A DNA stretch of 36,888 bases from Flavobacteriales bacterium (GTDB lineage Bacteria; Bacteroidota; Bacteroidia; Flavobacteriales_D; CAJJDF01): the NCBI GenBank assembly GCA_020630395.1, contig JAHDBM010000029.1, forward strand, positions 1,216-38,103, read 5' to 3'. The notes under the pieces were generated by a model. The model saw only the letters and a program-made list of their open reading frames with translations, was not told the DNA's origin and made no database searches. Positions 30,086 through 31,938 of this stretch are shown piece after piece. The translations under genes and the position numbers were made by a program. Positions within the stretch are counted from its first letter, which is position 1; each line of letters opens with the position of its first letter.

Positions 30086-30493
30086 ATGAAACAAAGAATT
30101 GCTCAAATAGCTATAGTCGTTAAAGATTATGATGAAGCTATAGAATTTTACTGCAAAAAATTAAATTTCAGTTTAGTAGAAGATACTATACTAACACCAG
30201 AAAAAAGATGGGTTATCGTTCAACCTCCTGGCTCTAATGGCTGTGGTTTATTACTTGCTAAAGCTGCTAACAAAGAGCAAGAACTGAGCATTGGTAATCA
30301 AACTGGCGGACGAGTATTTATGTTTTTATTTACTGATGATTTTGACAGGGATTATACTAACATGTTGAATAATAATATTGAATTTGTTCGACCTCCAGAA
30401 GAACATGCTTACGGCAAAGTAGCTGTTTTTAAAGATTTATATGGAAACTTATGGGATTTTATAGAGCCTAATGAAAAAAACTCATTGTTTTAA
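30086..30493 (+). CDS. VOC (glyoxalase/bleomycin-resistance/dioxygenase) superfamily protein
   Basis: A 135-residue single-domain VOC-fold protein with two beta-alpha-beta-beta-beta modules. The first runs from AQIAIVVKDYDEAIEFYCKKLNF, the second from VFMFLFTDDFDRDYTNML to AVFKDLYGNLWDFIEP. The last motif (DLYGNLWDFIE) carries the Glu that usually binds metal. The first-strand His of glyoxalases is replaced (AQIAIVV), so classical metal coordination is incomplete and the substrate is unknown. The start at ATG 30086 is supported by a -7 element; the longer GTG frame from 29978 would enter the gyrB promoter. The following TetR gene is 95 bp downstream with its own promoter. Confidence 0.86.
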   Translation: MKQRIAQIAIVVKDYDEAIEFYCKKLNFSLVEDTILTPEKRWVIVQPPGSNGCGLLLAKAANKEQELSIGNQTGGRVFMFLFTDDFDRDYTNMLNNNIEFVRPPEEHAYGKVAVFKDLYGNLWDFIEPNEKNSLF

Positions 30494-30547: not shown

Positions 30548-30565
30548 AAACAGACAAGTCTGTCT
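30548..30565. promoter_or_regulatory. Predicted TetR-family operator, copy 1 (tetR promoter)
   Basis: An 18-bp dyad, AAACAGA-CAAG-TCTGTCT, has seven-base arms with one mismatch. The 19 bases from 30550 match those from 31161 at 16 positions, differing only in three central bases. It sits where the -33 region of the tetR promoter should be, so bound regulator would block RNA polymerase, the usual autoregulatory arrangement. Confidence 0.72.
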
Positions 30566-30576
30566 ATTTATTTTTA

Positions 30577-30584
30577 TATCTTTG
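30577..30584 (+). promoter_or_regulatory. -7 promoter element for the tetR gene
   Basis: TATCTTTG matches TAnnTTTG and is the same octamer as at the SRP RNA promoter. There the RNA starts on the fifth base after the element; here the fifth base is the G of the GTG start codon at 30589. No -33 TTG is present, its place being taken by the operator. Confidence 0.65.
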
Positions 30585-30588
30585 TTAT

Positions 30589-31140
30589 GTGAAAAAACAC
30601 ATTAAGCAACATATAATTGAAACTGCATCTGGTCTTTTTTATAAAAACGGGTACAACTCTACTGGAATAAATGAGATTATAAAGGAATCAAATATTGCAA
30701 AAGCTACACTTTATAATCACTTTAAATCTAAAGAAGAAATATGTATAGCCTACTTAAAGTATAAAGGCAATAATTTTTTATCCGATATTAAGCAATACTG
30801 CTTAGGAAAACCAAAAGGAAAAGAACAAGTAATTGGTATATATAATTTCCTCAAAGATTTTTTTAGCTCTAAAGGGTTTAATGGATGTTGGTGCATAAAG
30901 ACTGCAGCTGAAATTCCTATAGACAATAAAACCATTAAAGAAGAAATTCAATTACAAAAAAGAGATTTCATCATTATAATAGAACACTTAATTGAGGAAA
31001 ATTTAGCATCTCTAAACACGGAAATATTAGCAAAACAATTATACGTACTATACGAAGGTGCTGTTGCTGAAAGTCATATACACAATGAGGTATGGCCTAT
31101 AAATAGTGCTATAGAAATTTGCAACAAAATAATAGAATAA
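30589..31140 (+). CDS. TetR/AcrR family transcriptional regulator
   Basis: A 183-residue repressor-type regulator. The N-terminal TetR helix-turn-helix is clear: IIETASGLFYKNGYNSTGINEIIKESNIAKATLYNHFKSKEEICIAYL (about 9-57), with the recognition helix around KATLYNHF. The C-terminal ligand-binding helices diverge and give no ligand clue; one Cys-rich spot (GCWCIKTA) is notable and could sense electrophiles or oxidation. GTG is the only plausible start, because the DNA-binding domain begins within a few codons. It is probably autoregulated through the dyad at 30548-30565, and probably controls the SDR gene 52 bp downstream through the matching dyad at 31159-31176. Confidence 0.9.
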   Translation: MKKHIKQHIIETASGLFYKNGYNSTGINEIIKESNIAKATLYNHFKSKEEICIAYLKYKGNNFLSDIKQYCLGKPKGKEQVIGIYNFLKDFFSSKGFNGCWCIKTAAEIPIDNKTIKEEIQLQKRDFIIIIEHLIEENLASLNTEILAKQLYVLYEGAVAESHIHNEVWPINSAIEICNKIIE

Positions 31141-31149
31141 AAAAATTTG
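31118..31149 (+). promoter_or_regulatory. Weak promoter for the SDR gene
   Basis: TTTG (31118-31121) is followed after 20 bases by AAAATTTG (31142-31149), one base off the TAnnTTTG consensus. The predicted start near 31154 would lie just before the operator at 31159, placing the operator at the first transcribed bases, where a bound repressor can block elongation. Confidence 0.45.
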
Positions 31150-31158
31150 AAAACAAAA

Positions 31159-31176
31159 AGACAGACTGTTCTGTCT
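31159..31176. promoter_or_regulatory. Predicted TetR-family operator, copy 2 (SDR gene)
   Basis: A perfect 18-bp dyad AGACAGA-CTGT-TCTGTCT, 15 bases before the SDR ATG. It is the better of the two copies. The TCTGTCTATT right half is identical in both. Confidence 0.75.
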
Positions 31177-31191
31177 ATTAAAAACAAACAA

Positions 31192-31938
31192 ATGAGTAAA
31201 TACACAAACAAAACAGCTCTAATAATTGGAGGAACTAGTGGAATTGGCAAAGCTACAACAGAAAAACTATTAGCCGAAGGTGCTAAAGTTCATGTTGTAG
31301 GTAGAAATGTATCAAAGATTAATGATACAAATAACCTAATAAAGCATAGTATTGACATCACTAATCAAAGCGAAGTGAATAAATTAATAGACAACATTAA
31401 TGAGTTGGATAATTTAGATTTCTTAGTAAATGCCTCTGGAATTTTTGAGCCTAAACCATTTCTTGAATATTCTATAGAAGATTACGATTCTTATCAAGAT
31501 TTAAACAGAGGTTTTTTCTTTATCACTCAAGCTGCTGCAAATAAAATGAAAAACACAAAAGGTGGAGCTATAGTAAATGTAGGATCAATGTGGGCAAAAC
31601 AAGCTGTTAAAGCTACACCATCTTCAGCATATTCTATGCAAAAAGCAGGATTACATTCCTTAACTCAACATTTAGCCATGGAACTAGCAGATTATAATAT
31701 TAGAGTTAATGCTGTATCACCAGCAGTAGTAAATACACCTGTATATAATAGTGTTTTTGGAGGAAAAGAAGAAGCTCAAAAAGCACTTGTTGGATTTGAT
31801 GCATTCCATCCTATCGGACGTGTTGGAACTGCAAATGATATTGCAAATAGTATTAACTTTTTGTTATCTGATGAAGCCTCATGGGTAACTGGAGCTATAT
31901 GGGATACTGATGGAGGTGTTATTGCTGGAAGAAATTAA
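31192..31938 (+). CDS. Short-chain dehydrogenase/reductase (SDR)
   Basis: A 248-residue classical SDR. The cofactor motif GGTSGIG is at 13-19, the NAS-type segment is NASGIF (about 83-88), and the catalytic residues are Ser132, Tyr147 and Lys151 (YSMQK). The C-terminal DTDGG is typical of FabG-like members. The residues after the second strand (VVGRN) put an Arg near the adenosine ribose, suggesting NADP preference, though this is tentative. The start is ATG 31192; a TTG at 31147 would translate through the operator. The gene is likely the TetR target; a small carbonyl or electrophile substrate is plausible given the pairing, but unproven. A terminator follows. Confidence 0.92.

Follow-up and report, generated by a model that had tools for sequence, protein, structure and literature searches.

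A conserved operator pair at a tetR-SDR locus of Bacteroidota: a putative autoregulated sensor-effector module

Described TetR-reductase switches and the present locus

Locally acting, autoregulated TetR repressors associated with a reductase are an already known kind of switch; the tetR-SDR module considered here is, to our knowledge, uncharacterised, and an earlier account of this gene pair was not found in the open-licence literature. We also know of few TetR circuits that have been worked out in Bacteroidota. CifR of Pseudomonas aeruginosa, which is linked to epoxides, is, like the regulator of the present locus, a TetR-family protein with effector-domain cysteines and a related fold (structure rank 10), while the two share 14-15% identity and CifR has an epoxide hydrolase regulon. 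Fold and full-length alignment are likewise shared with regulators of the YxaF, PA2196 and SCO4454 type, although identity is low (21-22%).

Closer in arrangement is AcuR of Rhodobacter sphaeroides, the operator of which, TAATAGAC-n6-GTCTATTA, overlaps the promoter of the leaderless acuR-acuI-dddL mRNA (PMC3017554). The window, that is the whole stretch of 36,888 nucleotides of a Flavobacteriales bacterium contig that was analysed, resembles this system in that the gene of a TetR autorepressor is placed directly 5' of a reductase gene, in AGAC/GTCT half-sites within an operator that overlaps the promoter and in a leaderless regulator mRNA, which for the window is predicted (PMC3017554). The original prediction had called such half-sites common in TetR operators, with which the published AcuR operator is consistent (PMC3017554). 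On the other hand, AcuR uses a single operator, the spacing of which is n6, an internal promoter is lacking, AcuI does not belong to the SDRs, the promoter is of the proteobacterial -35/-10 type and the co-inducer is acrylate (PMC3017554). NemR of Escherichia coli, encoded by nemRA-gloA, has in common with the window regulator the fold, a redox cysteine, Cys106, which corresponds to Cys100, and an adjacent reductase gene (PMC5297802), whereas identity is about 21%, Lys175 is replaced, Cys102 is additional and an SDR takes the place of the flavin reductase NemA (old yellow enzyme) as effector, with no gloA downstream.

The locus (Table 1) is best read, and we consider this reading likely, as an autoregulated repressor of the NemR/AcuR type, probably thiol-sensing, which would control a detoxifying reductase as a self-contained sensor-effector module. 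The circuit itself, with both sites served by a single regulator, is well supported computationally. While the coordinates from O1 to O2 span both dyads, the functional unit reaches to the stop of the SDR gene.

Table 1. Positions of the features of the tetR-SDR locus within the window
Feature	Position	Strand	Sequence	Description
Operator O1	30548-30565	.	AAACAGACAAGTCTGTCT	over the expected -33 region of the tetR promoter; 1 arm mismatch
O1 core	30552-30561		AGACAAGTCT	upstream of tetR
-7 element	30577-30584	+	TATCTTTG	tetR promoter; Bacteroidota consensus TANNTTTG
tetR	30589-31140	+		GTG start; 183-aa TetR-family regulator; Cys52, Cys100, Cys102, Cys178 conserved
A-tract/TTT	31141-31149	+	AAAAATTTG	conserved; putative role as degenerate -7 element, second promoter
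Operator O2	31159-31176	.	AGACAGACTGTTCTGTCT	between tetR and the SDR gene; 0 mismatches, 7-bp arms
O2 core	from 31163		AGACTGTTCT
SDR gene	31192-31938	+		248-aa classical SDR; GGTSGIG, S132, Y147-x3-K151, G37-R38

The operator pair and its conservation

Both predicted dyads are present, O1 at 23 nt from the tetR GTG start and O2 at 18 nt 3' of the tetR stop and 15 nt 5' of the SDR ATG. The earlier description of O2 as perfect holds for its 7-bp arms, the central four bases being non-palindromic, and the near-identity of the two sites, given as three central differences over 19 aligned bases, is correct for 30550-30568 against 31161-31179 (ACAGACaagTCTGTCTATT / ACAGACtgtTCTGTCTATT), while an alignment that begins at 30548 has one further difference (A/G at position 2). 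The dyads are not due to chance, as confirmed by dinucleotide shuffles (3,000 per short region), none of which reached one mismatch for O1 or zero for O2. In a scan for further copies through the whole genome (3,532,823 bases, 138 contigs), O1 and O2 alone matched AGACAGA-N4-TCTGTCT with no more than one mismatch. At two mismatches, hits are no commoner than for a reversed-pattern control, and the four others of this class were, at this control-level frequency, rejected as extra targets. What Bacteroidota gain is a clean, genome-unique operator pair together with a ready regulator-enzyme set.

The original prediction had made the operator role depend in part on the conservation of the dyads in orthologous loci, and conserved they are. 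Compared were 84 loci, the window and 83 tetR orthologues of 34-65% identity, of which 80 derive from genome contigs (Flavobacteriaceae, Saprospiraceae, Chitinophagales and others) and 3 from the order of the window; L009 (G385) and L090 (a Crocinitomicaceae MAG) are one locus from two sources, which makes 83 independent loci. O1, with at most four mismatches, precedes tetR in 83/84 loci, so that the palindromic operator at the own promoter that is a trait of TetR regulators is, as a predicted operator, present. O2 follows the tetR stop with at most two mismatches in all 84 loci, with perfect arms in 50 and a start 17-19 nt past the stop codon in 72; among shuffled orthologous regions (3,360 per set), none had fewer than two mismatches for O1 or fewer than three for O2. 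The sites persist at a regulator identity as low as 34% (L010) and are kept where the SDR is swapped for other genes (L008, L009, L010, L096 and L097), and the AGAC-NN-GTCT dyad is absent at L105-L107, other-branch TetR loci from a wider search. That both sites are conserved across the 84 loci, that other-branch TetR loci are without the dyad and that SDR and regulator co-occur perfectly strongly supports the proposed single-regulator circuit of autorepression plus control of the dehydrogenase. The double-operator layout is, at the level of sequence, well conserved, the tetR-SDR switch arrangement being kept in dozens of Bacteroidota, and the regulator very likely binds and represses at both O1 and O2.

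The distance between O1 and O2 amounts to 608-655 nt, mostly 624-629 nt, and is mainly set by the length of tetR, due to which the helical phasing of the two sites was discarded as uninformative. A strict operator-plus-promoter pattern had no match in a scan of the phylum (0/395), but as the window itself does not satisfy this pattern either, the result carries no weight as evidence.

Promoter elements, the mode of action of O2 and linked genes

In 73/84 loci the tetR start codon is preceded, at exactly 4 nt, by a perfect TAnnTTTG; over all loci this codon is ATG in 53 and GTG in 31. The -7 consensus of Bacteroidota has been described together with Flavobacterium johnsoniae start sites 4-5 nt past this element; of the transcripts predicted in this species, 87% have leaders longer than 10 nt (PMC6847099). 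As the spacings agree, the tetR mRNA is predicted to be leaderless, with a likely transcription start at 30589; for a phylum with such a representative, this would be an uncommon state, predicted to be kept across these families. The O1 core starts 27-29 nt from the -7 element in most loci and a TTG in the O1 centre is often found at -33 spacing (20-22 nt; 43 loci), so that O1 covers the -33 region, a position suited to repression.

Next to O2, a canonical -7 element (TAHHTTTG) was not found in the 77 SDR loci. An AAAATTT element is present in 61 of these 77 loci, in 59 of the 61 exactly 14 nt from the O2 core; its general form is AAAAATTT(A/G), 5' of the O2 core at the fixed 14 nt, at 31141-31149 in the window and with equivalents in L011-L089. 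AAAATTT(A/G) may represent a degenerate form of the -7 element that serves a second promoter, in which case O2 would extend from about +6 to +23. Alternatively, O2 may be a roadblock or auxiliary site, with tetR and the SDR gene on one leaderless transcript and O2-bound repressor stopping read-through. The lack of TAHHTTTG beside O2 favours such a roadblock, as do the acuR-acuI-dddL operon, which has no internal promoter (PMC3017554), and the relatives L098-L102, where the next gene, 3-12 nt away and probably co-transcribed, goes along with O1 only. However, the fixed 14-nt position of AAAATTT resembles an RNA polymerase contact, and L010 and L096 carry extra dyads in the gaps before or beyond distal genes, as separate promoters would predict. 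We rate the roadblock as slightly short of an even chance; it concerns the mode of action of O2 alone and is compatible with the preferred reading of an autoregulated NemR/AcuR-type repressor.

The assignment of the downstream gene product as a classical SDR is based on PF13561 (adh_short/adh_short_C2 type; E 7.5e-49), the glycine-rich motif and S-Y-x3-K; in an alignment of 38 sequences G13-G19, Y147 and K151 are invariant and S132 and N105 nearly so. The G37-R38 pair after strand 2 presumably indicates NADP(H) as the cofactor. Of about 390 genomes sampled from the class, five only (G000, G484, G863, G1044 and G1060) contain SDR orthologues (E<=1e-60); they are the five with a tetR match above 245 bits, and the SDR gene is always adjacent to tetR. 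This restriction to close tetR orthologues, with invariable adjacency, identifies the SDR as part of the module and not as a chance neighbour. G1044 possesses, besides an intact module, a second SDR copy (L126, contig C262) that is partial and broken by one internal stop. As tetR is absent from the other genomes examined of the genus and family of the window and occurs in 4/399 genomes of the order, the module is patchy in distribution; perhaps it has been transferred between genomes.

A cupin gene lies between O2 and the SDR gene in 9 loci, and genes for an alpha/beta hydrolase, a CMD protein and a flavin amine oxidase are often found 3' of the SDR gene. Where the SDR is missing, O2 precedes different genes, encoding an OsmC protein (L008), a small CPVC thioredoxin-like protein with no Pfam match (L009/L090) or DUF1348 with a CMD-like protein (L010, L096), from which it follows that O2 belongs to whichever effector operon comes next. 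These alternative or accompanying effectors (OsmC, the small CPVC protein, CMD, cupin, alpha/beta hydrolase) are of redox and detoxification types. A VOC/glyoxalase-superfamily gene on the same strand (30086-30493) was considered as a partner in the manner of nemRA-gloA and rejected, since it is located upstream of O1 and is missing beside tetR in all orthologous loci, which excludes it from the module; its position by O1 is an accidental echo of nemRA-gloA.

The regulator, its cysteines and the sensed compound

The regulator combines an N-terminal TetR HTH (PF00440, E 6.7e-14) with an all-helical effector domain, and its structure model of nine helices (pLDDT 94.6) has many TetR structure matches with Z >16. 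At the top of the solved structures stands NemR (4yze; Z 21.6, rmsd 1.8, 180 residues, 21% identity); SCO4454, PA2196 and YxaF come close behind, the first ranks being tied. Scores for the NCBIfam models of AcuR, NF051457 (41.4 bits, cut-off 247), and of CurR, NF058643 (54.9 bits, cut-off 300), are below the curated cut-offs.

In the sequence alignment Cys100 coincides with NemR Cys106, and the structure model places it in the loop that joins helices 78-93 and 103-108. Conservation is 84/84 for Cys100, 83/84 for Cys52 and 81/84 for Cys102. The lysine proposed as sulfenamide partner in NemR, Lys175, has His163 at its aligned position in the window regulator and is not conserved; a NemR-based biosensor without this lysine still senses HOCl (PMC8748444). 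Distant relatives retain GC, with a second cysteine at this spacing in SDR-type regulators only (GCWC, L091-L095), where DUF1348-type regulators read GCGW, GCSF or GCCF. By these alignments Cys102 is nearly confined to SDR-type regulators and the Cys100 position is general in this TetR branch, so that conservation alone is no proof of thiol sensing; as GCWC also occurs in the regulator of the OsmC locus (L008), where the SDR is missing, the link between Cys102 and the SDR is not absolute. GCWC provides two residues at which the sensing chemistry can be directly tested.

In the mechanism that we infer, a dimeric TetR-family repressor would bind O1, where the -33 region of the tetR promoter lies, as well as O2, and with both occupied neither tetR nor the SDR gene would be expressed. 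The inducer would be a reactive small molecule, such as an electrophilic carbonyl, a quinone or similar, that modifies or occupies the effector domain around the Cys100 loop. The altered repressor would then leave O1 and O2, and the inducing compound, or a product formed further downstream, would be reduced by the SDR, with NADPH as the most likely cofactor. The predicted leaderless state of the repressor mRNA, for which the acuR operon offers a parallel, may hold the output of repressor below that of the enzyme. The chance that a reactive compound is sensed through Cys100 is about even, or somewhat better, and reduction of the sensed compound by the SDR is plausible. With NemR as the closest structure, Cys100 at the position of NemR Cys106 and redox or detoxification genes as neighbours or replacements, a putative electrophile-sensing SDR module, as originally proposed, is a reasonable hypothesis.

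Most TetR regulators are sensors of non-covalent ligands. The same circuit may respond to an ordinary metabolite, the substrate or product of the SDR such as a ketone, an alcohol or an aromatic compound, with the cysteines being structural, and the Cys100 position is indeed common to regulators with quite different effector genes. That acrylate co-induces AcuR points in the same direction (PMC3017554). Cys100 in 84/84 loci, in the loop that bears the redox cysteine of NemR, the second cysteine added almost only in this branch and the redox-flavoured effector repertoire argue against a non-covalent ligand, which we regard as possible but not probable. Beyond the preferred thiol-sensing repressor, a Bacteroidota redox switch may be imagined in which Cys100-x-Cys102, the GCWC pair that SDR-type regulators have and the DUF1348-type sister group lacks, is a two-cysteine sensor, the leaderless repressor mRNA and a second operator located behind a non-canonical promoter fix the repressor-to-enzyme ratio and the effector gene behind O2 is exchanged in evolution while the operators stay. 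As a whole we consider this composite unlikely. Highly improbable are RNA hairpins or repeat elements (attenuator, terminator or mobile repeat) in place of protein-binding operators since, although each dyad could form a 7-bp RNA stem, O1 is upstream of the predicted transcription start and would not be transcribed from that promoter, no U-run is present 3' of O2, the sequence itself is conserved beyond mere pairing and the genome has two copies only.

Sister regulators with the same AGACAGAC-type operator are followed by DUF1348 (NTF2/SnoaL-like) genes in L096-L103, a linkage which may hint at what DUF1348 does. In these DUF1348-type loci O1 stands alone where tetR and the DUF1348 gene are nearly contiguous (L098-L102, gap <=12 nt); in L101 O1 is degenerate. 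Three operator copies each are found in L010, where two stand before the DUF1348 gene and a third precedes tetR, and in L096, with copies upstream of tetR, before DUF1348 and farther downstream. At L106, a different TetR gene beside a different SDR gene has its own twin dyads, AGACCGTTCGGTCT upstream and TAGACCGAACGGTCTA between the genes, and the two-operator TetR-SDR layout thus recurs with another operator sequence.
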